Shown: piece by piece, positions 40,735 to 59,324 of the stretch
Layout: the number at the start of each line of letters is the position of its first letter
How positions within the stretch are numbered: position 1 is the first letter of the stretch
Assembly: GCA_013822425.1 (NCBI GenBank)
Contig: PNKL01000015.1
Coordinates: forward strand, 1-59,513
From: Gemmatimonas sp.
Lineage (GTDB): Bacteria > Gemmatimonadota > Gemmatimonadetes > Gemmatimonadales > Gemmatimonadaceae
Direction: 5' to 3'
DNA length: 59,513 nt
Made by a program: the position numbers and the translations under genes
Notes under the pieces: generated by a model
Told to the model about the DNA's origin: nothing
Seen by the model: only the letters and a program-made list of their open reading frames with translations
The model's database searches: none

Positions 40735-40742
40735 AAGGTTCT

Positions 40743-40818
<76 letters not shown>

Positions 40819-40848
40819 GGAACGACAACTCATTGTCCCGCTAGCGCT

Positions 40849-43447: not shown

Positions 43448-43490
43448 TCTTCACGTTTCCGGAGATTGCTGCAAATCCGCCCTTCCGATG

Positions 43491-43895
43491 TCAGAAAGGC
43501 GCGGGTGCGGCCTGGGCCGGTACTGCCCGGTCGTCGGGCGCCTTGCGCGGCGACAAGAGCACCACCTCGCGAACGTTCACCTCGGCGACATGGTGTGTAC
43601 GGCCCTCCTTATCGTCGTACTGCCGGTATTCAAGTCTCCCTTCGACAAACACCTTGTCACCTTTCCGCGCGTAGCTCTCCATGATGTCGGCAAGTCCAGC
43701 ACCATCCGCCGACCGATTCCACGCGATGCATTTGTGCCACTCCGTGCGCTCCTGTCGTTTGCCGGAGGCATCATCCCACTGGCGGCTCGTTGCGATCGAG
43801 AACTGCGCGACCTTCGTTCCAGCTTGGGTTGTACGGACTTCGGGGTCGGCACCGAGATTTCCGATTAGCGACACCCGGTTCAGACTGCGGCTCAT
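43491..43895 (-). CDS. ssb: Single-stranded DNA-binding protein of the island
   Basis: 134 aa from ATG 43895. The OB-fold pattern is clear: SLNRVSLIGNLGADPEVR, then FSIATSRQW, WHKCIAWNR, KGDKVFVEGRLEYRQY and VNVREVVLL. It ends in PAQAAPAPF and keeps the terminal Pro-Phe, but lacks the acidic DDD tip that recruits host repair proteins. The tail is only about 20 residues. A private SSB next to a rolling-circle Rep fits an element that exposes single strands when it replicates. Confidence 0.92.
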   Translation of the reverse strand: MSRSLNRVSLIGNLGADPEVRTTQAGTKVAQFSIATSRQWDDASGKRQERTEWHKCIAWNRSADGAGLADIMESYARKGDKVFVEGRLEYRQYDDKEGRTHHVAEVNVREVVLLSPRKAPDDRAVPAQAAPAPF

Positions 43896-43932
43896 AGCGA
43901 CTCCTGAGAGAGTTGAGTTCGTTCGCATACGG

Positions 43933-43968
43933 GCGCACTTCGCCCGTCAAGTCGCGGGCGAAGTGCGC
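43933..43968. other. 14-bp perfect hairpin between rep and ssb
   Basis: GCGCACTTCGCCCG (43933-43946) is exactly complementary to 43955-43968, with an 8-base loop at 43947-43954. It sits in the 127-base gap between the Rep and SSB genes. It could be a terminator/attenuator or a replication origin structure for the HUH protein. Confidence 0.7.
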
Positions 43969-44022
43969 AACCCGCCTCCTTCCCGCGCTCCGGTGCATGG
44001 CATCGCGGAGCGCGGCGATCGG

Positions 44023-44742
44023 TCATGGAGGACGGCTGTCGACCGCTGCGAGGAGCGGGAGTGACGTCAGATCTGGAAACGCTCCGCCCAGGTCGATCTC
44101 TCCACCCTTCGCCACGTATTTCGCGCAGTAACCACTCACGCTTCCGATTGAACGAGGCGTCTCGAGTCGAGCGAATCCGCGACCAATGTCCAGCCACTCT
44201 GCCTCCCAAACGCGGCGGTCTGCGCATGCGAGGCGATCGTCGGCCCGTGCCAGGCGAGCCGCACCAACGAGCGCGTGATAGTGGATGACGCCGCGCCGCT
44301 GCAATTCCAGGGCACGAATCCAGTAGACACCGCTTTGCCGCTTGTACCAGCGCGCGCCGTAGAGCGACCGGCTGAGCTTGCTCGCCCAGACGCGGTAGCG
44401 TTTGTCGGCCGCCTCCGGATGCACTTCCTGAGCGAATGTGAACGTGCCAAACCACGACCACGGGTAGCGCGCCAGAAACGCGCGCCATGCGTCAAGCAGC
44501 ATGTTGTGCCGCACCTTGGAAGTGTCTTCCGGGGGCGCTGCCCCCGGACCCCCGGAGAGCCTTTGATTGGGGCGCACCCGGCAGGCCGCATTGCACCCGC
44601 CGGATACGTCCCCCGCATCCCGTTGCCGGTCTGCGCCCGCGTAGCTCGGGAGGCTCTCAGGAACCCGTCTACACACCGCACAGCGTCGCGCTTCAGCGAC
44701 AGCTGCTGCCTGTTGAATGCTCGTCTTCGTCTCCGACACCAT
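44023..44742 (-). CDS. HUH-type rolling-circle replication initiator (Rep)
   Basis: 239 aa from ATG 44742; the next codon is GTG and fits better behind the AAGGAGGT site, so either may be used. Motif 1 is WFGTFTF (98-103). Motif 2 is H154-Y155-H156, the metal-binding HUH. Motif 3 is Y205-CAK-Y209-VAK, with candidate catalytic tyrosines and lysines. A Cys-rich N-terminus (CAVC) may bind zinc. Such proteins nick one strand at an origin and start rolling-circle replication. No helicase domain follows, so host helicase is needed. Confidence 0.8.
   Translation of the reverse strand: MVSETKTSIQQAAAVAEARRCAVCRRVPESLPSYAGADRQRDAGDVSGGCNAACRVRPNQRLSGGPGAAPPEDTSKVRHNMLLDAWRAFLARYPWSWFGTFTFAQEVHPEAADKRYRVWASKLSRSLYGARWYKRQSGVYWIRALELQRRGVIHYHALVGAARLARADDRLACADRRVWEAEWLDIGRGFARLETPRSIGSVSGYCAKYVAKGGEIDLGGAFPDLTSLPLLAAVDSRPP
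44528..44548. other. 9-bp perfect hairpin inside rep
   Basis: TCCGGGGGC (44528-44536) pairs perfectly with 44540-44548 around a GCT loop, within the Rep coding region (a Gly-Pro-Ala-rich stretch near residue 65). In several rolling-circle replicons the nick site lies inside rep; here that is only a possibility. Confidence 0.55.
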
Positions 44743-44856
44743 GCACCTCCTTCGTCGATGCCTCGAGCATTCCGCCGACAACCAGCCTGATCCCGACCCG
44801 CACGACGACGGAGGTACAGCGTCGAAATCCCGATTTGCCTGCCACCGGTTACCCAA

Positions 44857-45051
44857 CTACTCGTCTTCTTCGTCCGAACCGTCGGGCTCATCGTCGAGTG
44901 CGACCAGATCATCCTCTGAATCGGACACGTCGTCGTCGGACTCAACCGTCTCGTCGTCGAGCAGGTCATCAAGCACGGATTTCACGTCGTGCAAGGCGGC
45001 GCGGAGTTCTTCGCACTCCGCCGCGAGTTCAGCGCGCGTTGGGCGTGCCAT
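44857..45051 (-). CDS. Small protein with coiled coil and acidic tail, 64 aa
   Basis: ATG 45051 lies 8 bases after a GGGAGG ribosome site. The first half is a helical segment (ELAAECEELRAALHDVKSVL). The second half is nearly all Asp, Glu and Ser. A GTG three codons upstream overlaps the preceding stop. No family is recognised. It is strongly negative and could mimic DNA or bind the basic HTH/Rep proteins coded beside it; this is inference. Confidence 0.6.
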   Translation of the reverse strand: MARPTRAELAAECEELRAALHDVKSVLDDLLDDETVESDDDVSDSEDDLVALDDEPDGSDEEDE

Positions 45052-45056
45052 CGAAA

Positions 45057-45338
45057 TCACCTCCCGTAGTCTGCTGATGTCATCGCGCGCCGGACGACGC
45101 GCGGCAAAGCAATGCTCCTCCTCTGCGCGAAGCGCACGAGGTCACGCAGGGTAATTCGGCGAGTTCCGAGCACTCTCCGAGTCCGCAGGGCCCCAGTGGT
45201 GACCCACCGGTGCACGACTTGGCGAGAGCGACGAACCAGCGCGGCCGCCTCACCTAGTGAGAGGAGGTCATCTGCGTAGAACGCCTGAGCGCGGTGATCG
45301 CCGCTGCGTCGATGATTACGCGTTGTCAGGTTGGCCAT
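45057..45338 (-). CDS. Small HTH DNA-binding protein (MerR/excisionase-like)
   Basis: 93 aa from ATG 45338. The HTH reads LLSLGEAAALVRRSRQVVHR then WVTTGALRTRRVLGTRRITL, the usual helix-turn-helix plus wing of excisionase/MerR proteins. It is the first gene of the minus-strand mobility module and faces a divergent regulator. A TTGGCCA direct repeat (45331-45337 and 45341-45347) covers its start codon and may be its own or its rival's operator. Confidence 0.72.
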   Translation of the reverse strand: MANLTTRNHRRSGDHRAQAFYADDLLSLGEAAALVRRSRQVVHRWVTTGALRTRRVLGTRRITLRDLVRFAQRRSIALPRVVRRAMTSADYGR

Positions 45339-45347
45339 GATTGGCCA
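45331..45347. promoter_or_regulatory. TTGGCCA direct repeat at a divergent promoter
   Basis: TTGGCCA at 45331-45337 and again at 45341-45347, three bases apart; each contains the palindrome TGGCCA. They straddle the start of the small HTH gene. Confidence 0.4.
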
Positions 45348-45392
45348 CTTTACCAGGATGCCTGTTCAGGAGACAATCTTTTGCGGCAAGAC

Positions 45393-45407
45393 TTGACGGA
45401 GCGTCAA
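45393..45407. promoter_or_regulatory. Inverted repeat over the ribosome site of the island regulator
   Basis: TTGACG-GAG-CGTCAA is a perfect 6-bp inverted repeat ending one base before ATG 45408. It contains the GGAG ribosome site. A protein bound here, or an RNA hairpin, would block translation or transcription of the regulator. Confidence 0.5.
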
Positions 45408-46430
45408 ATGCGGCGTCTGAAGCACGCCGCAGATCCGCTGGTTCCTATGTCGCAGGACCGTCTCCGGGCCGCATTTGAGCAAAGCCCGTATCGGGGTAAG
45501 GCGGGTGGTGCTGCCCTGGCGCGCGCCTTGTCGTCTGCCCTCGGGAGACCCGTCAGTCGGCAGTGGATTCACGATCGAGTGCGGCGCTGGGAAGATGGGT
45601 CTTGCCGGCGTAGCATTCGAGCTGGCCTCGCGAAGCTGCTTGGCGTTCCCGACAAGTGGCTAGCAGGTGAGCCTGTTCCGCTGCCCCTGATGGCGTTGTT
45701 TCTGCTGGGGGAGCCCATCGTCGGCTTGGACGAAGCCGACAGGGCTGCCCTGCAAAACGGCCCTTCAATTGGCCCGCGGCTTCAACTTGCGGCAGAGAGG
45801 CTTCTAGAGAAGTGCGTTAACGCCTGCAATCGTGACCTTCAGCGCCTCAACATCGAAGCCAACGCAGCAGAGCCGAGCGAACCTTTCGATCCTGCAGAGC
45901 AAGTCCGCGAGGATGTTCGCAACTACCTTGCCACCGCCATATTCGCGCTTACATCCGCACGCTCTTGGGGCGCAGCACTGCTTCGATCGCGGGAAACTGA
46001 ACGGAAGCTGACCGTCGCTGAGCAGAAGGCGTTGCTCGATGGATCATGGGCTGCGGCAAAGCCGACAGCCCTCTCAAGGGCAGAGATCGACGCGTCACTG
46101 CTACTGCTGCGCGGGTTCGAGGCTATTCTGCAGCCGTGGTTTGCCGACGAGGAATGCCTGAACTATCGGCGGCTACGCGAGGTTCTCATCGGCGTACGGG
46201 GAGTTGTCGCGACGATTGCGAGCAACTGCCTTCGGCCAACGATGGTTCGCCGCAGCAGCGGGCACCCCGTCAGCTTGGCTGATCGATTCACTCCACTGGC
46301 GGTGCTTAGATGGCGAAACGATGGGATGGCTGAGAAGTCTAAAGAAGACGCCTACACGCCAGAAGTCGCCCAGAGCGAAGGCAGATCCTTGCAGGACGTC
46401 GGATCGGTGACCGATGAACGCGAGAAGTGA
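45408..46430 (+). CDS. Island regulator-like protein with N-terminal HTH
   Basis: 340 aa from ATG 45408, chosen because GGAG lies 6 bases before it; ATG 45447 is possible. Residues about 15-75 resemble a phage-repressor HTH (LARALSSALGRPVSRQWIHD, then RAGLAKLLGVPDKWLAGEP). The remaining 260 residues are mostly helical without a known domain. It is divergent from the mobility operon, the usual place for a CI-like master repressor. No protease/LexA-type cleavage residues are evident. Confidence 0.62.
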   Translation: MRRLKHAADPLVPMSQDRLRAAFEQSPYRGKAGGAALARALSSALGRPVSRQWIHDRVRRWEDGSCRRSIRAGLAKLLGVPDKWLAGEPVPLPLMALFLLGEPIVGLDEADRAALQNGPSIGPRLQLAAERLLEKCVNACNRDLQRLNIEANAAEPSEPFDPAEQVREDVRNYLATAIFALTSARSWGAALLRSRETERKLTVAEQKALLDGSWAAAKPTALSRAEIDASLLLLRGFEAILQPWFADEECLNYRRLREVLIGVRGVVATIASNCLRPTMVRRSSGHPVSLADRFTPLAVLRWRNDGMAEKSKEDAYTPEVAQSEGRSLQDVGSVTDEREK

Positions 46431-46734
46431 TGGACGATCGGTTCGCCACTTAGCGCCGGCTCCGTCCTCAAGTAGACAAACACGACAGTTCGCGGCTTTG
46501 GTGAGAGTCGATCGAGGGAATTCGATCCTCCCACCCACGGCCCGTTTGTCCTTTCTCGGGACAGCGAACGGGTTCAAGTCGCGTTTGAGAACCTCGTCAA
46601 GGCCGAGCAAGTCGACGAAACTACGGAGTTCCGTCGGGTGAGCCGTGCAGCATACTTGCGTTTAGACGGCCTTCTTCCTAGATTAGTCCGTTCGAATATG
46701 CTGCTAACAGTAATACTATCAACTAGTTAGAGAC
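46431..46734 (+). promoter_or_regulatory. Gene-free region with candidate promoter for the AAA/subtilase pair
   Basis: No convincing gene. A/T content rises sharply toward the end. TTGCGT (46656-46661), a 17-base spacer and TAGATT (46679-46684) make a reasonable sigma-70-like promoter about 50 bases before ATG 46735. Confidence 0.4.
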
Positions 46735-47898
46735 ATGACGGACGATTTCGAGGTAGTTTCTACTGATTTAGCCCATATGGCCAGGCTCGCCCTGCTCGAG
46801 CGATCCACGGACGTGCGTCTCTTCGCGGCACGTCTTGTGCGCAAGTATCGAAAGACCCACCCGGAAATCGCTTCTGAACTCGAGAAGTACCTTCGTGTGC
46901 GTCCCGAACGAGGGTTCTCTCCTCTCCGAGACTCGACCGCAACCGCTCCCGCCGGAACTGCGGAGACGACCTCCAGTCCTCAAGACAGCGACTCTAGACT
47001 CTCACTCCTACGGACGGAGGACCGGAGTGGAGCCGTCACGGAGCCGATCCTCGCCCCGGCGCTGAGGGAGATGATCGATCAACTGCTGAAGGAACGGTCG
47101 AGTGCAGAACGGCTCGCGTCGCGCGGATTGGTGCCCGCTGGTTCGGCGATATTCGTCGGACCTCCTGGGGTCGGCAAGACGCTCACGGCGCGTTGGATTG
47201 CATCGCAACTCGGACTTCCGTTGCTAGTGCTTGATCTCGCTGCGGTAATGAGCAGTTATCTCGGCCGAAGTGGAACGAATCTGCGGTCCGCATTCGATCA
47301 TGCGAGGCGGGTTCCATGCGTACTTCTTCTCGATGAGATTGATGCGATCGCGAAGAGGCGCAGCGACGAGTCAGACGTTGGCGAACTGAAGCGCCTGGTC
47401 ACTGTGATCATGCAAGAGGTTGATGAGTGGCCATCCACTGGTCTCCTACTCGCTGCCACTAATCATCGTGAGCTGATAGACCCAGCACTCTGGCGTCGAT
47501 TCGACCTCATCCTCGAGTTCCCCCTTCCGGGTCCTGAGGAAATCCAATCGGCTATCGAACGGTTTGCCGGTCGCGACGGGCATGAGTTCGGCCCGCTTAT
47601 GCCCGTGCTCACTTCAGTACTTGCGGGCATCTCGCTGAGTGATGTTGAGCGCGCCATTCATCGGATACGTCGCGGACTTGCTCTAGGCCGACAGTTGCCG
47701 GCCGATCTGGTGGAAGATCTGATGCGTGAGACTGCGAGACCAGCAGATCGCCGCTCGCGGATAGAGCTGGCCATTCGACTCAGCGAGTTGGGGGCAATTT
47801 CGCAGCATCGCGTGTCCGAGCTCACAGGGGTGAGTCGAGACACTCTTAGGAAATATCAGCGCGACGGTGGACCGGAGAAACCGCGAGACGAGCGATGA
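46735..47898 (+). CDS. AAA ATPase of an IetAS-like defence pair
   Basis: 387 aa. A helical N-terminal region (1-110) precedes one AAA domain: Walker A GPPGVGKT (142-149), Walker B VLLLDEID (D200, E201), sensor AATN (N243) and arginine finger region ALWRRFD (R254/R255). The C-terminus adds a short helix-turn-helix-like segment (ISQHRVSELTGVSRDTLRKY). Its stop overlaps the subtilase start (ATGA), so the pair is made together. AAA plus S8 peptidase pairs are known as IetAS, tied to plasmid incompatibility/stability and later to phage resistance. Confidence 0.85.
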   Translation: MTDDFEVVSTDLAHMARLALLERSTDVRLFAARLVRKYRKTHPEIASELEKYLRVRPERGFSPLRDSTATAPAGTAETTSSPQDSDSRLSLLRTEDRSGAVTEPILAPALREMIDQLLKERSSAERLASRGLVPAGSAIFVGPPGVGKTLTARWIASQLGLPLLVLDLAAVMSSYLGRSGTNLRSAFDHARRVPCVLLLDEIDAIAKRRSDESDVGELKRLVTVIMQEVDEWPSTGLLLAATNHRELIDPALWRRFDLILEFPLPGPEEIQSAIERFAGRDGHEFGPLMPVLTSVLAGISLSDVERAIHRIRRGLALGRQLPADLVEDLMRETARPADRRSRIELAIRLSELGAISQHRVSELTGVSRDTLRKYQRDGGPEKPRDER

Positions 47899-50123
47899 GT
47901 GCTACGAATTTTCTAATCGGGCGAGGAGAACTACTGACGGCTGAGGTACCGCCGCCTAAGCGCATCGTCGAGAAAGCTGAGGTGTACGGCGTCACGGAGA
48001 CGAGAGATCGCTTGTCGCCACAGTTAGCTGCGGTGGTCGAGCAGATGGATCGCCTACCCGACGGCGCGTGCCCGGAAAACCTCGCGGTGGCGAGAGTGGC
48101 AATCAACCCAAGCTATCTCGCAAAATCCTTCTTTCCTGGCCAGCTGCTTCGGCATGCGAACCTGGAATCGGTCGGCAGTCGTGCGATTAGACTCACGCCG
48201 CGGAAATGGTCCAAGAAGTCGACGCCGTGCGAGACCGCGACCGCCGAGCTATTTGTGGCGGGAAGCCGCTCCGCATTCCGCGCGCTTTCCGTGTGGATTA
48301 GTGAACTGAGCGAGACGGTGGATCTCAGCGCTGCGGTGGTCGATGCGACGCGCCTTGAGCGCGTCGCGCCGTTTCGACCGGAAGAACGAATTCGTGGCGA
48401 CACCATACCTGATGATGGATTCTATGAGGTCGGAATCCATCTGCTGCCCGGGCAGTTAGCGAACGTGATTCGCACGGGGTTCGAAAGTCTCGCGCAGTCA
48501 CTGGAAGTGCGACTTCACAGCAACCCGAGTTTCGAGGTCGGTAGTCTGTGGTTCCTGGTGGTCGAAGCGTCCGCAGCGAGGATCCGCAGCTTGGCTGAGT
48601 ATTCCTTCGTCCGCATCATCCGACCGTTGCCGCGTTTGCGCGGCCTGCTGCCCTCTCTTCGCCACGGCAGTGCGGTGAGTGTCACCTGCCAGCTGCCGCG
48701 TGTGGGAGCACTCTCGCTCGAGCCACGCGTTGCGATCCTGGACGGCGGCCTTCCTGACGAGCATCAGATCGCACCCTGGCTGCGTTCATACACGCGCCTC
48801 GATGCCTTGGCTCCGGACGACGAAGGATGCACAGCTCATGGCCTTGCCGTCACGTCTGCGTTCCTGTTTGGCCCCATCACGCCGGCGGGCCCGGCCCAGC
48901 GACCTTTCGCGCCGGTCGATCACCTGCGCGTATTGGATCGGAATAGTTCGCACGAGGATCCTCTCGAACTCTATAGGACGCTGGGCCATGTGGAGGAAGT
49001 GCTCCTGTCCCGACAATACGAGTTCATCAACCTGAGCCTCGGTCCGGCGCTACCGGTTGACGATACGGACGTACATGCGTGGACCTCCGTGATCGATGAG
49101 ATTCTCAGTGACGGCAACACGTTTCTTACGGTGGCGGCAGGTAACAATGGCGCACAGGACCGAGCCTCCGGTAACGCACGAATTCAGGTTCCGGCGGACT
49201 GCGTAAATGCTGTTGCTGTCGGAGCCGCGAACAGCACGACGTCGTTGTGGCGACGTGCCGACTATAGCGCGATGGGTCCGGGACGCAGTCCGGGTGTGGT
49301 AAAGCCAGACTTACTCGGCTTCGGCGGTGAGGGCGGCGAGTATTTCCATGTCTTGTCACCGGGAGCGAACCCGGAGCTGAGCGCGCAGCTGGGCACAAGC
49401 TTCTCAGCACCGCTTGTGCTTCGGAACGCAGTCGGTGTGCGGGCGGTGCTCGGACCATCGATGAGTCCCTTGGCGATCAAGGCATTGCTTGTGCATTCCG
49501 CGGAGACAGCAGGTCACCCAGCATCCGAAGTGGGATGGGGGCGAGTACCCGAGAGTCTCGATGCGATCATCGTTAGTCCGCCAGGGGTTGCGCGGGTTGT
49601 TTACCAAGGCGAGTTGCGACCGGGGAAGTATCTTCGTGCGAAAGTTCCGATGCCGGCGACAGGTATCCGAGGTTTGGTGACGTTGCGGGCAACGTTCTGT
49701 TTCGCGTCGCGGATCGACCCACAGGACACGGTAGCGTATACGAAAGCCGGCCTCCAAGTGACGTTGCGCCCCAACGTGGAGAGTGTTCGCGAGGGCGCCC
49801 AGAATGCGAAGACGAAGGCGTTTTTCGAGGAGACCCCATACGCGACAGAGCACACCCTTCGCGCAGACCATGGGAAATGGGAGACTGTTCTTCATGGTGA
49901 AAAGCGCATGCGTGGAAGTTCGCTTCACGAACCTGCGTTTGACGTGCACTACAATGCTCGCGATGGCGGTGGCCCGTCACACAGCGGCGAGAAGATCCCG
50001 TATGCGCTGGTGATCTCCCTTGAGGCCCCACAGCACGTAGATCTCTACGCCGAGATCTTAGCGGCCTATCCGCAGTTGCTTGTGCCAATTCGACCGCTAG
50101 TGCCGGTCCCGGTGCGCGTGTAG
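47895..50123 (+). CDS. S8 subtilisin-like serine peptidase of an IetAS-like pair
   Basis: 742 aa, with no signal peptide, so the protease is cytoplasmic. An N-terminal region of about 270 residues precedes the S8 domain. The triad is Asp283 (AILDGG), His315 (CTAHGLAV) and Ser502 (GTSFSAP), with Asn417 (AAGNN) as the oxyanion residue. A 200-residue C-terminal beta-rich region follows. A complete catalytic site in an intracellular protease coupled to an AAA ATPase implies controlled proteolysis, probably on an infection or plasmid signal. The trigger and substrate are unknown. Confidence 0.88.
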   Translation: MSATNFLIGRGELLTAEVPPPKRIVEKAEVYGVTETRDRLSPQLAAVVEQMDRLPDGACPENLAVARVAINPSYLAKSFFPGQLLRHANLESVGSRAIRLTPRKWSKKSTPCETATAELFVAGSRSAFRALSVWISELSETVDLSAAVVDATRLERVAPFRPEERIRGDTIPDDGFYEVGIHLLPGQLANVIRTGFESLAQSLEVRLHSNPSFEVGSLWFLVVEASAARIRSLAEYSFVRIIRPLPRLRGLLPSLRHGSAVSVTCQLPRVGALSLEPRVAILDGGLPDEHQIAPWLRSYTRLDALAPDDEGCTAHGLAVTSAFLFGPITPAGPAQRPFAPVDHLRVLDRNSSHEDPLELYRTLGHVEEVLLSRQYEFINLSLGPALPVDDTDVHAWTSVIDEILSDGNTFLTVAAGNNGAQDRASGNARIQVPADCVNAVAVGAANSTTSLWRRADYSAMGPGRSPGVVKPDLLGFGGEGGEYFHVLSPGANPELSAQLGTSFSAPLVLRNAVGVRAVLGPSMSPLAIKALLVHSAETAGHPASEVGWGRVPESLDAIIVSPPGVARVVYQGELRPGKYLRAKVPMPATGIRGLVTLRATFCFASRIDPQDTVAYTKAGLQVTLRPNVESVREGAQNAKTKAFFEETPYATEHTLRADHGKWETVLHGEKRMRGSSLHEPAFDVHYNARDGGGPSHSGEKIPYALVISLEAPQHVDLYAEILAAYPQLLVPIRPLVPVPVRV

Positions 50124-50407
50124 CAGGCGGTGTGGTTGTCTAGAATCAGGAGTGCCCGCACACTCCACGCGCCCGGGTGCGAGAAGTGACGCAGACCATG
50201 ATGCCGACCGAATGCGCGAAGCTCTGCTTCGTGTGCTTGCGGGCTACCGCACCGGCTTGCCACCTCGAAATCACTTGGCCTGCACTCTCAGAGCAACCGC
50301 TGGAAAGGGATTCCGTCGTATCCGCACGTGGCGCCTCCGCCGAGAGCTACCCTTGGACGAATTCTAGAGCATCCCACGAAATCCAGGCTCTCGGGCGCCG
50401 TCGGTTG

Positions 50408-51265
50408 TCACCTTGCAGCAATCCTAGCTAGTGCCTGCCGGTGCAGGCGCGACTCAATCCATGAGTACCACGCCAGTCCGACGAAGCTGAGCACGAACGG
50501 AGCGGCCATGGCGATGTCAGGATGTGATGCCCCGCCAAACACAATCACCGTCTTGTCGAGCGCGGCATAGCCCAACGCAAGCGCCAGCGCCAGTTTCAGG
50601 CGCCGCATTGCTAGGCCGGCTGCCGCGAGCGCCAAGAAGCCACTTCCCCCTGAAATCGAAGGTGACCATGCGCCCGCCTTGTGTGCCAAGAGCGCTCCAA
50701 CGACGGAGGCAGAGGCGCATGATAGTATGACCGCTCGATGACGATTTGCCCGCGCACGCTCATCGGCAATGAACGCGAACTTCGGCGCGCTGCCGATGAT
50801 GGCCAGTCCGCGAGCAAGACCAGAGAACCAAACGATGATTGCACCAATCACCGCCATGACGAAGAGGGACGACATCAAGGCGACGCCCGGGAGGCGCCCC
50901 TCATTGAGGAAGGTCGAGCCAGGAGCATTGCCGAATGTCCCAGAGAGCATCTGGGCGGCGACCCCCGTAAGCATCAAGAGCGATACCCCGATGATAAGAT
51001 CATTGGCATGTGCTCGATGGCTCGCGAACGTGCTCAGGCTTCCCAGTACCAATCCGACCGCGAGCGCCGCCAGCAGACTGCCCGGTCCGGTAAGTGTCGG
51101 GCTGGTAGTCGCCGCGATTGCCGCTCCGAGACTCACAATGCCATCGAGCGCAATGGGAATACTGCCCACTCGCATCTGCAAGCTCGCCGTTGCCACAAGG
51201 AGGAATAAGACAGCCGCGTTTGCAGCGACGCCCTGGAACCAATCGGCCAAGATTGGCAAGGTCAC
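50408..51265 (-). CDS. BMP-type ABC transporter permease 2
   Basis: 285 aa from GTG 51265, overlapping the stop of permease 1 (GTGA). Eight or so hydrophobic helices and the IPIALDGIVSLGAAIAA, GSLLAALAVGLVLGSL and NDLIIGVSLLMLTG segments match the second permease of simple-sugar/nucleoside importers of the BmpA/PnrA class. It closes a five-gene minus-strand cassette. The 284 bases after its stop (50124-50407) show no gene. Confidence 0.82.
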   Translation of the reverse strand: MTLPILADWFQGVAANAAVLFLLVATASLQMRVGSIPIALDGIVSLGAAIAATTSPTLTGPGSLLAALAVGLVLGSLSTFASHRAHANDLIIGVSLLMLTGVAAQMLSGTFGNAPGSTFLNEGRLPGVALMSSLFVMAVIGAIIVWFSGLARGLAIIGSAPKFAFIADERARANRHRAVILSCASASVVGALLAHKAGAWSPSISGGSGFLALAAAGLAMRRLKLALALALGYAALDKTVIVFGGASHPDIAMAAPFVLSFVGLAWYSWIESRLHRQALARIAAR

Positions 51266-52113
51266 TCTCGTGCTCCTGTCTTCGGTAACCAGAACAACGC
51301 TCCAACTGCCAGAACGACTCCGAGGCCAAGGGCATATGTGTAACTCGGCAATCCGAACTGAATACTGATCGCCGGTACCGCTAGGCGCGCCAGTGCGATT
51401 GCGACGCTGGCTGGAAAGAGCCACGTGAGCGACCTTGCAGATGCGATAGCCACGATCAGCCCCTCCAACGTCAAGAACTCATAGTCTCCGTACTGATACC
51501 GCATGCGCGAGCCAAGAAGGTCGGTGAGCGGCACAACCGCAATTGTAAGGCCGGCCCAGAGGAGCGCCCATGAGAAGACCTTCCGTCGGTGCTCGCCGTC
51601 AAGCGCATCAGGCGCCGCGTTCGCGATGATAGAAGCTCGCCCTAACGATGTGCGCCGTTCGATCGCGGGGGCCAGAACGCTCACGAGGAGCGCAAGGCCC
51701 GCGCTAGCCCAAGCAACGACTGGTGCCGGATAGGTGGAGCGTACCCATCCCGGAATGGGCGGTGATGCGACGAGCTGTGAACTTGCGTCGACCGGAAGCG
51801 CAGCCTTCAACAGGGGCTGCAGCGCGAGTGCGAGAATGAGGGAAGTGAGCACCGCACTCCGGTCGGATGTCGGTGCAGCCGCCTTGATTAGAAGAAGAAG
51901 GCAACAAGCAAGAAGGAAACTCGCGGCTCCTGCGAGAACTAAACAGTATCCAGCCGCTAGCATCATTGACGTCAACGCGGCCGAAAGCGCTATTTGGGCG
52001 CTCCACGCGAGATTCAGGACGCCGGCGCGCCGCAAGAGCTCAAGTGCCAAGCCGGATAACAGAAGCGTTGGCAGTGTATCTCGAAGTCCTAGAATCCAAG
52101 TATCAGATGCCAA
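51262..52113 (-). CDS. BMP-type ABC transporter permease 1
   Basis: 283 aa. The frame is closed by a TGA two codons before TTG 52113. No ATG or GTG occurs until far inside the first helices, so TTG is the likely start; it overlaps the ATPase gene by 11 bases and would depend on re-initiation. Multiple membrane helices and TSLILALALQPLLKAALP/RYQYGDYEFLTLEGLIVAIA segments match importer permeases of the nucleoside/simple sugar class. It is shorter than usual for this position (commonly about 350), perhaps lacking N-terminal helices. Confidence 0.78.
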   Translation of the reverse strand: MASDTWILGLRDTLPTLLLSGLALELLRRAGVLNLAWSAQIALSAALTSMMLAAGYCLVLAGAASFLLACCLLLLIKAAAPTSDRSAVLTSLILALALQPLLKAALPVDASSQLVASPPIPGWVRSTYPAPVVAWASAGLALLVSVLAPAIERRTSLGRASIIANAAPDALDGEHRRKVFSWALLWAGLTIAVVPLTDLLGSRMRYQYGDYEFLTLEGLIVAIASARSLTWLFPASVAIALARLAVPAISIQFGLPSYTYALGLGVVLAVGALFWLPKTGARE

Positions 52114-53473
52114 GGTAGGTCATCCATGCGGGATCGTCCTGTATCGTCTCAAAGGCAATCGAGGCTTGAATCCACGGGAAACTCGGGGGTGAGGCCGTCA
52201 GAATCAGCACCAATGACCCAGCGCGGGCAGCCTCGCAAAACAGCCCCGCCACCGTTTCCACGCCGCGATCATCCAAACCACGAAACGGTTCTTCAGCGAC
52301 GATGACCGCATGTGGGTCGAAGGACTCTCGAGAGATAACGAGGCGCTGCCGATTACCGCCCGAGAGGCAGTCCACCAACTCGTCGAGACTCTTCACTCCG
52401 CTCACACCCGCCCGTTCCGTGACGCGCTTCGCGAGCGCATCGATATCGCTGTGATGCAATAACCCGAACGGCCCACGAGCTGCGTGATGCCAACGATTAA
52501 TGACAGCATTGTCGCGAACTGAAAGGTTCGCTGCTAGTGATTTCTCTGAGGCATCTGCAGGGATTCGACAAATCGAGAATGAACGGACGTTTCCTCGCAG
52601 CCGGGCACGCGCGGTCTCCTCCCTGAGCAACGCTTCGCAGAAGGTGCGGAACGGGCGAGTCGGCGGCCCATGAAGCCAAGTGATCTCGCCGGATCGTGCA
52701 ACGGAATATTCAACATGCTCGGCGTTCGTAGTGACTGTTGCGAGAAGCATGTGGAACGAGCACTCGGTTACGGCCCGGCCTCTGCTTGGCGCTGTGGGCG
52801 TAGGCGACGGCTTCACATATGGGACGAGTCGTCCCGCTGCGAGACTATGGGTTCGACACACCGGCAGTGACTGTTGCGGATGCGCAATGGCGACAGCGTA
52901 TGCGCCTCGGCGCGACACCTCGTTGAGGAGGGCCCCCCAGACCTTTGCGGCGCGGATTGGGTCGAGGAAGCTCGTCGGCTCATCGAATACGAGAACCTTG
53001 CGCTCCTTGAGTAGCGCCGCTCCTACGATGGTGAGCTGAAGCTGGTCGGACGGGAGGTCGGCCAACCGATCATCTACGCTCACAGTCAGATCTACGTCGT
53101 AGCCTTGCCAAAGCTCGCGCACGCGGGACATCGCTCGAATCTGAGCGTGCCGATCGCCTCTCGTGCTCTGCATCGTCAACAGGTCGCCGAGTGACGCTTC
53201 GGTTATTCGAGGCAGGCACTGTGGTGCGACCGCAGCTAAATACGCCGGAATCTTCGGCACACTGACAAGAAGCGACTTCGCCGTCTGCAAAGAGAACGAT
53301 CCCCTGCGGGGAGTGAGACGCCCAGCACAGAGTTGTCCAAGCGTAGTCTTCCCAGCGCCATTCTCGCCGGTAATGACCACAAGTTCGCCTTCTTGCACGC
53401 TCAGGCAGACGTCCACGAGAAGGGGTTCGCCAGTCGCGGGGAACGCAAACTCGAGATTGCGCGCTTCAAACAT
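52103..53473 (-). CDS. Double ABC ATPase with one degenerate site
   Basis: 456 aa, two fused ABC domains as in RbsA/YufO-type importers but shortened. Domain 1 has a good Walker A (GENGAGKTT, 36-44) and Walker B (D164-E165), but its signature is lost (LADLPSDQ, 137-144). Domain 2 has lost Walker A (GPPTRPFRTF, 269-278) and has Glu-Glu where Asp-Glu is expected, but keeps an intact signature LSGGNRQ (370-376). Domain 1 nucleotide site plus domain 2 signature therefore form one working site; the other is dead. Confidence 0.85.
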   Translation of the reverse strand: MFEARNLEFAFPATGEPLLVDVCLSVQEGELVVITGENGAGKTTLGQLCAGRLTPRRGSFSLQTAKSLLVSVPKIPAYLAAVAPQCLPRITEASLGDLLTMQSTRGDRHAQIRAMSRVRELWQGYDVDLTVSVDDRLADLPSDQLQLTIVGAALLKERKVLVFDEPTSFLDPIRAAKVWGALLNEVSRRGAYAVAIAHPQQSLPVCRTHSLAAGRLVPYVKPSPTPTAPSRGRAVTECSFHMLLATVTTNAEHVEYSVARSGEITWLHGPPTRPFRTFCEALLREETARARLRGNVRSFSICRIPADASEKSLAANLSVRDNAVINRWHHAARGPFGLLHHSDIDALAKRVTERAGVSGVKSLDELVDCLSGGNRQRLVISRESFDPHAVIVAEEPFRGLDDRGVETVAGLFCEAARAGSLVLILTASPPSFPWIQASIAFETIQDDPAWMTYLGI

Positions 53474-53493
53474 GGCGCCTCCGCCACGGTGGG

Positions 53494-54411
53494 CTACTTC
53501 CTCGGTGCGGGAACCATGGCGGCGGACGACAGGGGGGTGAGTGCTACAGCCGAATCTGCCAAACCGAAGCTCAACGACTTGCCGCCAAGGCGTCCGACAC
53601 GCTGCCGTAAGTCAGTAACTCGCACGATCGCGACGTCGAGTCGCTTCAGCATGCTGGTAAGCACGGTCGATGGGGCAAGGTATCCCTGGTCCACGTCGAC
53701 GCCGATAGCCCAGACACCGCGCTCACGCGCCGCCTGAATGACACCGTTGCCAGATGTGCCCGCGGCATGATAGAGAACATCAGCCCCAGCCGCGATAGCA
53801 GAAAGAGCAACTTCTCGTCCTCGAACGGGGTCGGTAAAGGCACTGCCACCTGTTCCAAGGAAGTAACTAGCGAGGTTGACGTCCGAGGCGGCATCGCGGA
53901 TCCCAGCGGCAAAGCCATCGCGAAATTCGCGGATGACGGGAATGTCCATGCCGCCGATAAACGCAACATGCCGGGTGCGCGTTGCCTGAGCGGCTACGTG
54001 TCCCGCAAGGCGAGAACCCTCAAACGCCAAGAACTTCACCGACGTCACGTTCGGTGCAGCGCTGAATGAGCCGTCCAAGATCACAAAGTCGATACCGGGA
54101 TACTTAGGCGCTGTGCGCTTGACTGGTTCTTCGTAGAGAAAACCGACGCAGAAAACCACCGCCGGTCGCCGGGCGGCCAGCGCCTCCAAGCCTCGCGAGT
54201 AGTCTTCCATGGAACTGGGTTCGTACTCATCCACGACTACGCCGCGACTCTTCAATACCCCAACCGCGCCGGACGCCGCGTCATTGTAGGAGCGGTCGCC
54301 TTTTCCTCCGAGGGCGTAAGCGAGAGCAACATGCTCCTTCGATGTTGGTGACCGCGCGCACGCAGACCCGATTACGATGAACAGAGATAGCGACCAGACG
54401 AGTTTGGACAT
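53494..54411 (-). CDS. BMP/PnrA-family substrate-binding lipoprotein
   Basis: 305 aa from ATG 54411; a GTG three codons upstream is possible. The lipobox (VIGSAC) marks it as membrane-anchored. BMP-family signatures: ALGGKGDRSYNDAASG at the ligand entrance, AFIGGMDIPVIREFRDGF, and VLYHAAGTSGNGVIQAARERG with WAIGVDVDQ. Characterised relatives (PnrA, BmpA, Med) bind purine nucleosides. It stands directly upstream of its ATPase and permeases, and 6 bases behind the unknown membrane protein's stop. Confidence 0.9.
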   Translation of the reverse strand: MSKLVWSLSLFIVIGSACARSPTSKEHVALAYALGGKGDRSYNDAASGAVGVLKSRGVVVDEYEPSSMEDYSRGLEALAARRPAVVFCVGFLYEEPVKRTAPKYPGIDFVILDGSFSAAPNVTSVKFLAFEGSRLAGHVAAQATRTRHVAFIGGMDIPVIREFRDGFAAGIRDAASDVNLASYFLGTGGSAFTDPVRGREVALSAIAAGADVLYHAAGTSGNGVIQAARERGVWAIGVDVDQGYLAPSTVLTSMLKRLDVAIVRVTDLRQRVGRLGGKSLSFGLADSAVALTPLSSAAMVPAPRK

Positions 54412-54426
54412 AATGGGCACTCGTTG

Positions 54427-55701
54427 TTACTCAGGTTTCCTAAAGGCACGCAGTCGCATGCCCAAGTTCTCTCGAGCGGCACGCAGGCGCATTCGCGCGC
54501 TTCCTGGGGTGATCACGAAGTAGACGATCAAGAAGAGGACAGCTGTTACGGCTGCTACGACTCCGCGATGGAGCTTATCGGGGACCAGCTTGTCGAGAGT
54601 CAGTGCAAGGAACATAGTGAAGGTGGCGATGGCCAATTCGCGGCTACGAACGAGACGCTCGTCCTTTGTGCGCAACGAGAAGAAGAGATTCTGATCATCA
54701 GCTTCGAAAGTCGCTACCTTCGCCAATTCGTACTGGAGACCTGGCCAATATGGTACAGAGTCTGGCGATACCCGAGCCCATTCCTCAGGCTCACGAATCA
54801 GGTGCGGACTCCTCACGAGCGGAGGTACAGCTTCGATGATGGAATGGGAGTCTGGGATTCGGGGGAAGTAGTTCAACTTCGCTTGGCCAGCAGCCTCACC
54901 ATGCACCGCAATGTGAAGAGAAAACGGAGTCTCGTCAAAGTGCTCGACAAAGTACATTGGGGCTCTGGCACTTTCGCTGTCCTTGCGCCAAGCGCAAGAC
55001 CACCAGAAGCTGACCGCTTCTTGCTTGCGAAGCTGATACGCCGGAACGACTTCGATAGAGTTACGACTGCCAGCCAACAAAGTTGGTTGCAGCGTTATCT
55101 CAACCTCCTCCTCCTTCTTGCGCTCCGAGCTTCCAGAGAAACTACACGGATAGCAAGTCCGTTGATCAGTTGGTAGATGCACGACGGACTGGCGCCTGAT
55201 GGCGACTGTCCCCGGCCAAACATCATTGTCTTCTACGACGCGAGCCGCTCGAATATGGCTTAGTGACTCCTTCAAACGAGGCGCATTCGCGGGCGTGGTC
55301 AGCCTCGTTGAAGTTGCGCCATATGCAGCCGGCAGGGGATCTCTGCCTTGTGTCGTGGGATAGAAGAAATGCGAGTAAATGTCCCTGTTCAAGGACAGAC
55401 TTGCCACTACATTTCGCTGTGGTCTGCCCTCGGCAGCGAGTAGAAGTGGCGAACAATCGAGAGAGAGCTCAGTAACTTCGCCGGCGAATGCGCTTTGAGG
55501 TGTGAGTTGGATGACAACCGTTGGTGGGTCGAGGTAACCGTCTGCGTCGTGTCCTATGACGAACTCGATGTATACCGGCACGATTCCTGCACTCCGGGCG
55601 ACCAGTCCCTTCGACGGCAAGACCGGATTTACAGTCAGTTCAAGGAGTCGGTAACCCTTCGGTTCAATCTGGACATGCAATCGCGGTACGAGGGTTAGCA
55701 T
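54427..55701 (-). CDS. Unknown protein, 424 aa, with two C-terminal membrane helices
   Basis: Not recognised. Residues 1-320 look like a mostly beta-strand soluble region (VQIEPKGYRLLELTVNPVLP, PPTVVIQLTPQSAF, PFSLHIAVHGEA). Two hydrophobic helices (about 358-372 and 380-398) and a basic cytoplasmic tail (SARMRLRAARENLGMRLRAF) follow. There is no signal peptide, so the large N-terminal part is probably cytoplasmic. It is the first gene of the BMP-ABC cassette, only 6 bases from the binding protein, so it is likely co-transcribed. Signal-sensing or transporter gating are guesses. Confidence 0.72.
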   Translation of the reverse strand: MLTLVPRLHVQIEPKGYRLLELTVNPVLPSKGLVARSAGIVPVYIEFVIGHDADGYLDPPTVVIQLTPQSAFAGEVTELSLDCSPLLLAAEGRPQRNVVASLSLNRDIYSHFFYPTTQGRDPLPAAYGATSTRLTTPANAPRLKESLSHIRAARVVEDNDVWPGTVAIRRQSVVHLPTDQRTCYPCSFSGSSERKKEEEVEITLQPTLLAGSRNSIEVVPAYQLRKQEAVSFWWSCAWRKDSESARAPMYFVEHFDETPFSLHIAVHGEAAGQAKLNYFPRIPDSHSIIEAVPPLVRSPHLIREPEEWARVSPDSVPYWPGLQYELAKVATFEADDQNLFFSLRTKDERLVRSRELAIATFTMFLALTLDKLVPDKLHRGVVAAVTAVLFLIVYFVITPGSARMRLRAARENLGMRLRAFRKPE

Positions 55702-55710
55702 CGTCTTGCC

Positions 55711-55730
55711 TCGACTGAAGTCAGTGTCGA
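55711..55730. promoter_or_regulatory. Inverted repeat in a divergent promoter gap
   Basis: ACTGA-AG-TCAGT inside TCGACTGAAGTCAGTGTCGA, in the 56-base gap between the unknown membrane protein and the divergent methyltransferase gene. A shared operator is plausible. Confidence 0.4.
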
Positions 55731-55757
55731 CAATTCTTAGTGCGAGGGGCGTTCATA

Positions 55758-56483
55758 ATGAGTCGGTATAATCGACACAGCACGGTAGCGCCCTATCTAC
55801 GCAAGGTCCGTCGGCACAAGTCGCCTTATCTGATAGACGTTCGAGGCATCCCAATCTGGGTGTTGCCTCGTGTCATGTCACCGAAATACGACTGGACGTC
55901 CGGATTCACGCTTGATGTGTTGCCCTCCCAGGCCCGAAAGCGGGTACTGGAAATAGGAAGTGGATGCGGCGTTCTTGCCTGCGCCTGCGCGCTCGACGGT
56001 GCAACAGAGGTTGTCGCGACGGACATAAGCCCTATCGCCGTCGAGAATACGCTACTGAATCTTTGCCTTCTTGGCCAGTCGAAGCGAACGACGGTGATAC
56101 AGTCAGATGTCTTCGCGAACGTCACAGGGAGGTATGACACGGTCATCTTCGCCGCGCCATATCACGGCACGAAACCACGGTCGTGGCTGGAATACGGTGT
56201 CTCAGATTCTCGCTATCGGGCCCTTCGGAGCTTCTTGACTCGCGCCCGCGGCTTTCTCCGCCCGAGAGGGAGAATCTATCTTGGATTTAGCGATGTCGGT
56301 GACGAAGCGCTGCTCAACCGCCTGCTCCGGCAGGCGCGACTGGTGCGACGGGCTCTTTGGCAACGTCGCGCACATGGCTTCACGGCAATGCTAATCGAGT
56401 TGAGCCCCTCGTCGTACGCGCAAAAGCCTAACTCGCCCTGCACAGGCCCCAGCCTACTTCGGTCGTACCGATCTGCCGTTTAG
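55758..56483 (+). CDS. SAM-dependent methyltransferase (small-domain/RsmC-like)
   Basis: 241 aa from ATG 55758, 8 bases behind GAGGGG; a GTG upstream is weaker. Motif I is VLEIGSGCGVLACACA and the acidic ribose-binding residue is in VVATDISPIAVEN. FAAPYHG replaces the NPPY of N-methyltransferases, so target amino group and activity are uncertain. Length and layout resemble MTS-type enzymes that modify rRNA, proteins or small molecules. It lies 12 bases upstream of the RES gene on the same strand. Confidence 0.78.
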   Translation: MSRYNRHSTVAPYLRKVRRHKSPYLIDVRGIPIWVLPRVMSPKYDWTSGFTLDVLPSQARKRVLEIGSGCGVLACACALDGATEVVATDISPIAVENTLLNLCLLGQSKRTTVIQSDVFANVTGRYDTVIFAAPYHGTKPRSWLEYGVSDSRYRALRSFLTRARGFLRPRGRIYLGFSDVGDEALLNRLLRQARLVRRALWQRRAHGFTAMLIELSPSSYAQKPNSPCTGPSLLRSYRSAV

Positions 56484-56495
56484 GAGTCCCCACTC

Positions 56496-57233
56496 GTGGC
56501 GCTATTCTCCATCGACAGGCAGTACCTCGACGAACTTCGCGCGTGGAATCACTTCGCGAAGGAATTGAGGTTAAGGAATAGGTATGTCGTGCGCGATATG
56601 GCCTACTTCGAGCGACTTGTCGACGAGACTCTCGCTACCGAAGCCGTGTTGCCGAAGGACGCCGTACTGTTCCGGGCGCGGATGCTCGACAGCGAGCGGA
56701 CGTCGGAGAAGAGTCCATATGGGCGGATGGAGATGGGTGCGCCATCGGCGGCCAAGGCCACATCGGGTCGGCTGAATCCGCAGGGGATCTCGTGTCTCTA
56801 CCTCGCGGATACACCGAACACTGCGATCTCAGAGGTGAGGCCATTCGTCGGCGCTGTGGTTTGCGTGGCTACACTGACGACGCTAAGAGATCTTCGGATT
56901 CTGGACCTGTCTGGTGCGGATGTCCGTCGAGGTCGTAGTCCCACTATGCGCGCCCTTTCCCGTACGCTGGCTAGGCCAGTACATCAGGACGACGGGCTCG
57001 CGTACATCGCAACCCAGTTTCTTGCCGAGACTCTTAAGAGCAAGGGTGTCGATGGCCTCCAGTACGCTAGTGCCCTTCAGGAAGGCGGCAGGAACGTCGC
57101 GCTGTTCAATCCACGAAGTGCGCGTGTCGATCAGGTCCGAGTCGTCGAGGTGAGACGGGTCGAGTACACATCCTCGGATCTACAGAACTTTCGCGCACGT
57201 AAGCCGAAACGTCGAAGAGTGAGCGAGAGCTGA
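56496..57233 (+). CDS. RES-domain protein (NAD-degrading toxin family)
   Basis: 245 aa from GTG 56496. RES family marks: LFRAR (R60), GRLNPQGISCLYLADTPNTAISE (Gly91 to Glu113), and FNPRS (S208), giving the Arg-Glu-Ser set after which the domain is named. Characterised RES toxins are NAD phosphorylases or glycohydrolases that starve the cell. An N-terminal helical extension of about 50 residues precedes the domain. The usual partner, an Xre-like antitoxin with a MbcA domain, is absent; the gene before it is a methyltransferase. Confidence 0.82.
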   Translation: MALFSIDRQYLDELRAWNHFAKELRLRNRYVVRDMAYFERLVDETLATEAVLPKDAVLFRARMLDSERTSEKSPYGRMEMGAPSAAKATSGRLNPQGISCLYLADTPNTAISEVRPFVGAVVCVATLTTLRDLRILDLSGADVRRGRSPTMRALSRTLARPVHQDDGLAYIATQFLAETLKSKGVDGLQYASALQEGGRNVALFNPRSARVDQVRVVEVRRVEYTSSDLQNFRARKPKRRRVSES

Positions 57234-57665
57234 CCGCGCGACTGGCTGAGAGCGTCGAGCTTACAGGATGCAAGTCTCCGACAACTGGTCATGCACGCGT
57301 TGCTGACTCGAGCCGGTAACTGCACGTCGGTGCTTTCAAGGCCTTCGGCGCGAGATGCAAAACGGCGCGACCGAGATTGACCGACTCGTATTGCTTGAGG
57401 CGGTTCACGTGCAGGCGAGTATCGTCACTACTTGACCTGGCCGTGACAAGACGGTCGGCCTGTGAGCAACAGTCGAAATCGCCGTGGAGAAGGCCGCAAT
57501 TGATCGACTGATCGATCAGCGTGATCGATGTGCTGGTTTTCACCGAAGCGGTCGGCCCGGCCAAGGCCTCAGTGCTTTCTCGAGAGCTTCTGGGCCATCC
57601 GGGACGTGAATGTCGACGTCGCTACCCCGCAGGGCCAGTGCCACTTTTCATTAGGACGGACCTTA
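57234..57665. other. Gene-free stretch before the IS
   Basis: No convincing gene on either strand. A perfect 12-base palindrome, CTGATCGATCAG, lies at 57509-57520. Broken open frames just before the IS may be remains of a gene split by insertion, but I cannot identify one. Confidence 0.4.
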
Positions 57666-58957
57666 GGGCCCGCGACGAAATAAATATCGCAAGTTAGCAT
57701 TGCTTGTGCGGGCGAATCGTGTAGTTCCAGTCGCCGTGAAACGCGGCGGGCCGGAGTTGAATGGTCGCCCACTCCGCCGCAGAGATCTTGCGGCCCGTCG
57801 GGTACCGACGCCGATCCAACCGGCAGGAGACGTTCAACCCGGTCGTGGTGACGGTCTTGGAGATCAGGTTCACCACGGTCGCATAGTCGACCAATGGTTC
57901 GCCCCGCCAGTTCGAACTGATGAATGAGAACAGGCGGTGCTCCACCTTGTTCCATTTGCTGGTCCCCGGCGGAAAATGGGAGACCGCGATCGGGAGCTGC
58001 AATTCGTCGGCCAGCCGTTGCAGTTCCCATTTCCACAGGCGCAGTCGCGCTCCGTTGCTGCCTCCGGCATCAGCGGTGATCAACAGACGTTTGGCGTTGG
58101 GATACGCGCGCCGTCCGTCCTTCCGCCACCACGCCCGAATCGACGCCACGGCAAAAGTCGCTGTATCGTGATCGGTGCCGACATTGACGAACCCCCGGTT
58201 GCGCGTCAGTTCGTAGATCCCGTAGGGGTGGGCGCGCGGCACCGAGGGGTCGGGGAAATCGTGCATCTTGACCGGGCGAGCATCGCCTTGCTTGCGCCAC
58301 TGCGTCCCGCGATTGGCATAGTTGCCCACTAGTTCCTTCTTCTTGGTATCCACGGAAATGACCGGCTGAGCGGCGCGCATCTCCTGGGTCACCCGGGCAT
58401 TGATGTACTCGAACTGCGCATTGCGGTCCGGATGTTGCTTGCCTTCCAGCGTCTTCCGATTGCCCTGGAGGCTGTATGCCATCTCGTGCAGCAGCGCCCC
58501 AACCAGCCGACTACTGGCCGCATAGCCGAGCGTGGCCAACTCCCGCGAGAGCTGTCGGGTGCTCTTGCAGGTCCAGCGCAGCGGCGACTCCGGATCGCCG
58601 CGGGTGAGCGGCTCGACCAGCGCTTCGAGCGCTTGCGGGAGATCCGGCTGATGCGCGACGCCCGATTTGCGCCCGCCACCGGGCCGCCGCACGCGGCCTT
58701 CCGGCAGAATGTTGCCACTGTCGATCTCGCGCAGTCCGACCAGGATCGCGCGCCGGGAGATGTGGGTCGCGCGCGCGACCAACGAAATGCCGCCGTACCC
58801 GTGCGCGCGGGCTTCCGTGGCCGCCCAGAGGCGGCGCGTGTGCTCATCCAAGCGCGCGGCCAGCGCACGAAACTTCGCTCGAATCGCCGTTTCCAGTGCC
58901 ATGCATCAGCATAACACATTCCCCACTAAGATGCTATAGTTATTTTGTCGCGGGTCC
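57666..58957 (-). mobile_element. ISAzo13-family insertion sequence, 1.29 kb
   Basis: The ends are imperfect inverted repeats: GGGCCCGCGACGAAATAA at 57666 onward and GGACCCGCGACAAAATAA reading inward from 58957. TTA flanks both sides (57663-57665 and 58958-58960), a likely 3-bp target duplication. It carries one intact transposase gene. Confidence 0.8.
57694..58902 (-). CDS. ISAzo13-like DDE transposase
   Basis: 402 aa. An N-terminal HTH region (about 35-75) precedes the RNase H-like DDE domain: D185 (VISVDTKKKE), D278 (LITADAGGSNG) and E321 (FPPGTSKWNKVEHRL). The last pattern is typical of the ISAzo13 ('Rhodopirellula-type') family. The gene is full length and lies between good terminal repeats, so the IS could still be active. 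Confidence 0.92.
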   Translation of the reverse strand: MALETAIRAKFRALAARLDEHTRRLWAATEARAHGYGGISLVARATHISRRAILVGLREIDSGNILPEGRVRRPGGGRKSGVAHQPDLPQALEALVEPLTRGDPESPLRWTCKSTRQLSRELATLGYAASSRLVGALLHEMAYSLQGNRKTLEGKQHPDRNAQFEYINARVTQEMRAAQPVISVDTKKKELVGNYANRGTQWRKQGDARPVKMHDFPDPSVPRAHPYGIYELTRNRGFVNVGTDHDTATFAVASIRAWWRKDGRRAYPNAKRLLITADAGGSNGARLRLWKWELQRLADELQLPIAVSHFPPGTSKWNKVEHRLFSFISSNWRGEPLVDYATVVNLISKTVTTTGLNVSCRLDRRRYPTGRKISAAEWATIQLRPAAFHGDWNYTIRPHKQC

Positions 58958-58958
58958 T

Positions 58959-59279
58959 TACGATCAAGGTGCGGCGCTGTTCCTGCAAGATCATCGAGTT
59001 CGACCTTGCGGGCGACATTGTGCTGAGAGGCCCTGCGATGTCCGCCAGCAAGACGGCGTCATCTTCCGCCCGCTCTTCTGCGTGCGGTCGCTTATCGGAT
59101 GCGGCAGTCGTGAGTAGCTTCTGGTCGCGCTCTTCAGATGCTGTGTGGTGTCCATGTGTGTGTACAGGTTGTCCCTGAATGTGCGCAGCTTGTGCTGATG
59201 CGACGCGAAACTGAGCAGGATGTCCGTCCAGCGCGAGCTAAGTGAACATTCGCGCACAAATCATGCGCACTTGCGGGGT
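58959..59279. other. Gene-free right end of the island
   Basis: Between the IS and attR I see no supported gene. GTGGTGTCCAT at 59145-59155 repeats a sequence found at 40892-40902 near attL (and partly at 40905-40913), a possible integrase arm-binding site. Confidence 0.4.
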
Positions 59280-59324
59280 CCTGATAAGCGTGAGGTCCGA
59301 GGTTCAACTCCTCGATGGCCCATT
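59280..59324 (+). other. attR: right 45-bp attachment repeat
   Basis: Identical to 40774-40818 and consisting of the 3' half of tRNA-Ile. It is not a functional tRNA because the 5' half is missing. Marks the right edge of the island. Confidence 0.93.

Follow-up and report, generated by a model that had tools for sequence, protein, structure and literature searches.

The cassette and its neighbourhood

The window, i.e., the whole stretch of 59,513 nucleotides of Gemmatimonas sp. analysed here (contig PNKL01000015.1), carries at positions 50408-55701 a minus-strand run of five intact, co-linear and tightly packed open reading frames. Read 5' to 3', these encode a 424-aa protein, a BMP/PnrA-type lipoprotein, a double ATPase with two nucleotide-binding stretches (NBD1 and NBD2) and two permeases (P1 and P2); the coordinates are collected in Table 1. 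The first two genes are separated by a 6-bp gap and BMP and NBD by a 20-bp gap, while NBD and P1 overlap by 11 bp and P1 and P2 by 4 bp. For P2, the GTG at 51265, which produces this last overlap with the P1 stop, is a more plausible start than the alternative at 51424, which would give a 338-aa protein. The order BMP-NBD-P1-P2 matches that of ordinary BMP-ABC operons, and the five frames, with their PF02608 and ABC_tran matches, bear out the five-gene BMP-ABC cassette of the original prediction.

No nucleoside-salvage enzymes accompany the cassette; in contrast, operon L041 has genes for cytidine deaminase, purine nucleoside phosphorylase and deoC. Upstream of the cassette, no riboswitch or other RNA was detected, the tRNA being the sole RNA found, and a promoter scan returned no more matches than expected by chance.

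Table 1. Features of the integrative element and of the cassette, with positions in the window.
Feature	Position	Strand	Evidence or remark
Integrative element, 18.55 kb	40774..59324		perfect 45-bp direct repeat at both ends; tRNA-Ile target
tRNA-Ile (GAT), integration target	40742..40817	+	tRNA search
Left end repeat, 45 bp of the tRNA-Ile 3' end	40774..40818		perfect direct repeat
Tyrosine integrase	40849..42111	-	PF00589 E 1.3e-19; 92-93% identical to its G001 counterpart at this tRNA
Replication initiator, ORF2/G2P type	44023..44856	-	PF23343 E 5.8e-9
378-aa protein, no family	45294..46430		54% conserved in sister element, directly ahead of the cargo slot
IetA AAA ATPase, defence	46735..47898	+	PDLC02196 E 2.2e-74; NF042959 E 2.2e-64, under its curated NCBIfam cut-off
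IetS subtilase, defence	47895..50123	+	PDLC02197 E 5.5e-37
Permease 2 (P2), BMP type, divergent	50408..51265	-	hhalign to ordinary BMP permeases; 15/34 invariant positions
Permease 1 (P1), shortened, highly divergent	51262..52113	-	operon position; co-linear hhalign match; 14/34 invariant positions
Double ATPase (NBD1 + NBD2)	52103..53473	-	ABC_tran E 2.5e-18, two stretches
BMP/PnrA-type lipoprotein, lipobox IGSAC	53494..54420	-	PF02608 E 1.1e-46; fold model; pocket mapping
424-aa protein	54427..55701	-	probable hydrophobic hairpin near the C-terminus (about 355-398), then a basic tail; searches gave no homologue
Class I methyltransferase	55740..56483	+	PF05175 E 3.6e-14; divergent from the cassette, about 38-56 bp between
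RES-domain protein, possible NAD-degrading toxin	56496..57233	+	PF08808 E 3.5e-22
Right end repeat, copy of the tRNA-Ile 3' end	59280..59324	+	perfect 45-bp direct repeat

A tRNA-targeted integrative element with variable cargo

The components of a tRNA-targeted element are all present around the cassette: a tRNA gene, an adjacent integrase and direct repeats at both ends. The repeat, a perfect 45-bp copy of the 3' end of the tRNA-Ile (GAT) target, confirms the proposal that the cassette travels on a mobile island. The GC content is 0.61 in the element versus 0.69 in the left chromosomal flank. Genes for the integrase, an SSB and the replication initiator come first, followed by IetA/IetS, the cassette, the methyltransferase, the RES protein and a transposase; this last, an intact gene of the ISAzo13 type (57694-58902; PF07592 E 3e-135), lies just inside the element's right end. 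The cassette had been placed between a defence pair and a RES toxin gene, and the arrangement holds with IetA and IetS on one side and RES on the other, except that the methyltransferase gene intervenes before RES. No Xre-type antitoxin gene is adjacent to the RES gene.

Integration at the same tRNA was found in further genomes. The same-genus genome G001 carries a sister element, split over two contigs, whose integrase, SSB and initiator are 92-93%, 90% and 87% identical to those of the island. The 378-aa protein probably belongs to the element's core, and in G001 the slot that follows it is occupied by an HKD+Snf2 helicase, a type IIG restriction enzyme and a PDC-S68 defence candidate, with neither IetAS nor a BMP cassette in this sister. 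Two att-like repeat copies lie downstream in the G001 element (L161, G001:C8:119500-138303), about 5.6 kb apart, which suggests a composite of two cargo blocks, one with the helicase and type IIG genes and one with a small gene pair and PDC-S68. A third element, in G074, has a 53% identical integrase, the same tRNA and repeats on both sides; it encodes an HsdM-type N6-methylase, whose neighbours look like HsdS and HsdR from their position, and no BMP cassette. In G023, a fourth element at this tRNA lies near an MmeI-type restriction enzyme, and its far end was not found.

Altogether, restriction or other defence genes are the cargo of two or three sister elements whose integrases are related, and a BMP cassette was observed in none of these. 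The cassette therefore sits in a slot that carries defence genes in the known sisters, as expected from the defence-island setting first proposed for it. It forms variable cargo of this tRNA-Ile-targeting element, and its place in the slot is an association that does not prove a function.

The lipoprotein retains a predicted nucleoside pocket

The lipoprotein is a member of the BMP/PnrA family, scoring 159.6 bits against PF02608 (curated cut-off 24.1), with a conserved predicted nucleoside pocket. Its fold model, built from 27 sequences, reached a pLDDT of 89.5 and superimposed on guanosine-bound Lbp (7x0r) with a Z of 32.2 and an rmsd of 3.6 over 272 aligned residues. Nucleoside-bound BMP structures headed the fold matches at Z 30-32, and sugar-binding proteins scored no higher than 21.6; the matches also included 2hqb, a Med-like regulator of comK. 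In mycoplasma P48 and pneumococcal PnrA, the pocket consists of D, F, N, D, F, G, D and K (PMC12892991). We mapped these residues ourselves, by motif and using alignments with solved structures, to D42, Y45, N46, D116, F195, G221, D242 and K259, which makes seven of the eight identical and one a change of F to Y.

The C-terminus is about 25-40 residues shorter than in ordinary family members, and the ends around the gaps are conserved. In the lipoprotein tree, the branch measures 2.4 versus a median of 0.15 and its placement is unsure; this long branch shows that the lipoprotein too evolves fast.

The ATPase and permeases have diverged from ordinary pumps

The pump is a divergent relative of BMP-ABC importers. 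NBD1 keeps Walker A (GENGAGKT), Walker B and the H-loop and has a degenerate signature; NBD2 has lost Walker A and has an intact LSGGN signature. With the NBD1 Walker A and the NBD2 LSGGN both kept, one composite ATP site is complete. Neither P1 nor P2 matched any Pfam or NCBIfam permease model, whereas Pfam BPD_transp_2 finds ordinary BMP permeases at E 1e-37 to 1e-40. In profile comparison with ordinary BMP permeases, P2 aligned with an hhalign probability of 97% (E 9e-11), and P1 gave a co-linear match at E 0.065 over 208 columns. Statistically, P2 alone appears as a BMP-type permease, and P1 is provisionally assigned by its position and its weak co-linear match. The importer had been described as complete; this is borne out, with the qualification that P1 matches at E 0.065 and, like P2, is missed by Pfam and NCBIfam.

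Conservation was assessed at positions invariant in ordinary operons. In a first set of 82-91 operons, picked by BMP similarity, the cassette kept 45/54 such positions in BMP, 44/125 in NBD, 15/55 in P1 and 15/38 in P2. Because this selection favours BMP, the comparison was repeated with 18 operons taken from PF02608 matches and picked without reference to the cassette. Here the cassette kept 20/24 positions in BMP (83%), 40/69 in NBD (58%), 14/34 in P1 and 15/34 in P2 (41-44% for the permeases); for NBD and the two permeases, every other operon of the set keeps at least 74%, and the cassette falls short of this. The asymmetry was significant for BMP versus the permeases (Fisher p 0.0007) and for BMP versus NBD (p 0.028).

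Among the 18 operons themselves, BMP shows the lowest conservation (43% versus 45-49%), so the pattern in the cassette is not the family's usual one. Measured on the first set, the paralogue in the same genome shows the reverse, with 48% for BMP, 79% for NBD, 75% for P1 and 79% for P2. These comparisons suggest that ligand capture has been preserved and that the constraints on the pump have changed. Combined with the missing salvage genes, the asymmetry is the basis for suggesting that the cassette may be a sensor and not a feeder, though it does not prove it. For the permeases, the divergence could stem from relaxed decay or from a shift to a different substrate.

The 424-aa protein

The frame of the 424-aa protein is coding: it would remain open by chance with a probability of about 9e-8, and it scores highest for codon usage. 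Searches of Pfam, NCBIfam, PADLOC, PHROGs and PDB sequences, of plasmids, viral contigs and genome contigs, and of 60 relatives, 395 genomes of the phylum and 179 of the family gave chance-level matches only. A scan of 84,980 species with short exact peptides, which reaches close relatives only, likewise gave no homologue. Thus, the profile, sequence and genome searches leave the protein as unplaceable as it had first seemed.

Hydropathy delineates one clear membrane segment (380-398). A single-sequence AlphaFold model had an overall pLDDT of 33, with helices at 348-372 and 376-397 at about 55 and little else. The C-terminal hydrophobic stretch is probably a hairpin, which fits the two modelled helices, and the tail behind it is strongly basic; of the two helices and basic tail noted earlier, the tail and a hydrophobic stretch are recognizable in the sequence. 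By the positive-inside rule, the basic tail together with the hairpin would place both ends in the cytosol. The large N-terminal domain is probably cytosolic; this topology, like the partner role proposed below, is drawn from hydropathy and the same rule.

Linkage and occurrence

IetA relatives were collected from 298 genomes, yielding six IetA+IetS loci. None of the six had cassette genes or ordinary BMP genes in the flanks read, which argues that the cassette is not part of IetAS. Conserved linkage, on which the idea of an undescribed system had relied, found no support, since the 424-aa protein has no detectable homologue and the six related IetAS pairs lack the cassette.

Of 200 genomes of the phylum, 131 have BMP genes; many members of the family carry two, whereas G001 and G004, the same-genus genomes with any, carry one. 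It had been anticipated that a cassette common in core chromosomes would speak for ordinary uptake: ordinary BMP-ABC operons are indeed common, but the divergent cassette was seen once. The permease search for relatives recovered ordinary operons only, at 27-32% identity, and no relatives were found in plasmids or viral contigs. Among the matches listed, the genome-wide BMP scan had a best identity of 44-46%, and the 80 loci kept contained no close match to the other cassette proteins. Locus L046, suspected from its NBD to be a second divergent cassette, was rejected: its BMP and NBD are both ordinary, it lacks permeases, and its contig looks mixed.

Interpretation and comparison with known systems

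Together, the data support the reading of a nucleoside-type BMP-ABC cassette carried by a mobile element. Our preferred explanation, which we hold with about as much confidence as doubt, is a strongly diverged BMP/PnrA-type ABC system that serves as cargo of a defence slot and combines nucleoside capture with a 424-aa partner. The lipoprotein would capture a nucleoside outside the inner membrane, and the two permeases with their one complete ATP site would move the nucleoside or change conformation. The 424-aa protein, anchored by its C-terminal hairpin, would be a dedicated partner coupling to the remodelled permeases. Nucleoside capture is the most secure functional step and very probable. 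Of the possible outcomes, delivery of the nucleoside into the cell as a nutrient is plausible, with the balance tipping somewhat against it, and a signalling role towards the element or its defence cargo seems rather unlikely. It is improbable, although conceivable, that the element carries a nucleoside-sensing ABC device of its own, in which the lipoprotein, the remodelled permeases and ATPase and the membrane-tethered 424-aa partner would report extracellular nucleosides, for instance from lysed neighbours, and control the element or its anti-phage cargo.

Ordinary nucleoside uptake deserves to be taken seriously even as we doubt it: a normal, fast-evolving importer would provide an extra nutrient route and lie beside defence genes by chance. 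The ordinary gene order, the intact pocket and the frequency of BMP genes in the phylum, including a second copy in many family members and one in G001 and G004, are consistent with it, but the pump has lost positions that ordinary importers keep, Pfam recognises neither permease, salvage enzymes are missing and the paralogue has the opposite pattern. A further reading is a nucleoside sensor, in which binding, not transport, controls an element function (acquisition, excision) or the defence cargo by analogy with mycoplasma P48 (PMC12892991). The conserved pocket with a remodelled engine, the cassette's place among the defence cargo of an integrative element, the extra protein with its probably cytosolic domain and the presence of 2hqb among the fold matches all point in this direction. 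However, P48 is a chromosomal recipient factor of a wall-less organism and not ICE cargo, retention of Walker A in NBD1 and of the signature in NBD2 would fit a continuing need for ATP hydrolysis, and no signalling partner emerged from the analysis; we judge a sensor of this kind unlikely.

Loss of function altogether would also produce shortened genes, a missing NBD2 Walker A and missing permease motifs, as in an operon that was acquired whole and is now drifting with a pump that no longer works. Five unbroken frames whose junctions overlap or nearly abut, a codon-usage signal in frame and a pocket with all eight positions kept, one as F to Y, which drift would not have spared, make such a decaying passenger very unlikely. 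Finally, the cassette is adjacent to and convergent with IetAS on the same element and might be its accessory, supplying or sensing a nucleoside signal; given the six same-phylum pairs that do without it or any ordinary BMP gene in the flanks read, we consider this highly improbable.

Set against known systems, the diverged BMP/PnrA-type reading makes the cassette a genuine, divergent form of an already described importer type, lodged in a slot that carries defence genes. It shares the lipoprotein fold, the pocket residues, the operon order and the double NBD with two permeases with the PnrA/BMP importers (Treponema PnrA/TmpC, pneumococcal PnrA, Borrelia BmpD and C. thermocellum Lbp). Unlike in these importers, its ATPase keeps 35-58% and its permeases 27-44% of the invariant positions over the two sets, the permeases are missed by Pfam BPD_transp_2, an extra 424-aa protein heads the operon and the whole lies on a mobile element. 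In mycoplasmas, nucleoside binding by the PnrA-like lipoprotein P48, and not transport, governs ICE acquisition (PMC12892991). The cassette resembles P48 in its PnrA-like, predicted nucleoside-binding lipoprotein with ABC genes and in the connection of nucleoside binding to an integrative element, which is an analogy; unlike the chromosomal P48, it is carried by the element itself. As for the IetAS anti-phage system, IetA and IetS adjoin the cassette, and related pairs occur without it.

The literature searched contained no paper linking BMP-ABC genes with defence islands. Should the pocket-kept, pump-remodelled cassette work on the element as proposed, it would be a second, independent tie of nucleoside recognition to mobile DNA or defence, after that in mycoplasmas (PMC12892991). 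If it is an importer only, defence-carrying elements would also move nutrient uptake genes. BMP genes ride on phages as well, as seen from a gene for a BMP-type binding protein in Lactobacillus phage Ldl1 (KM514685.1 57541-58452; 30.7% identity).
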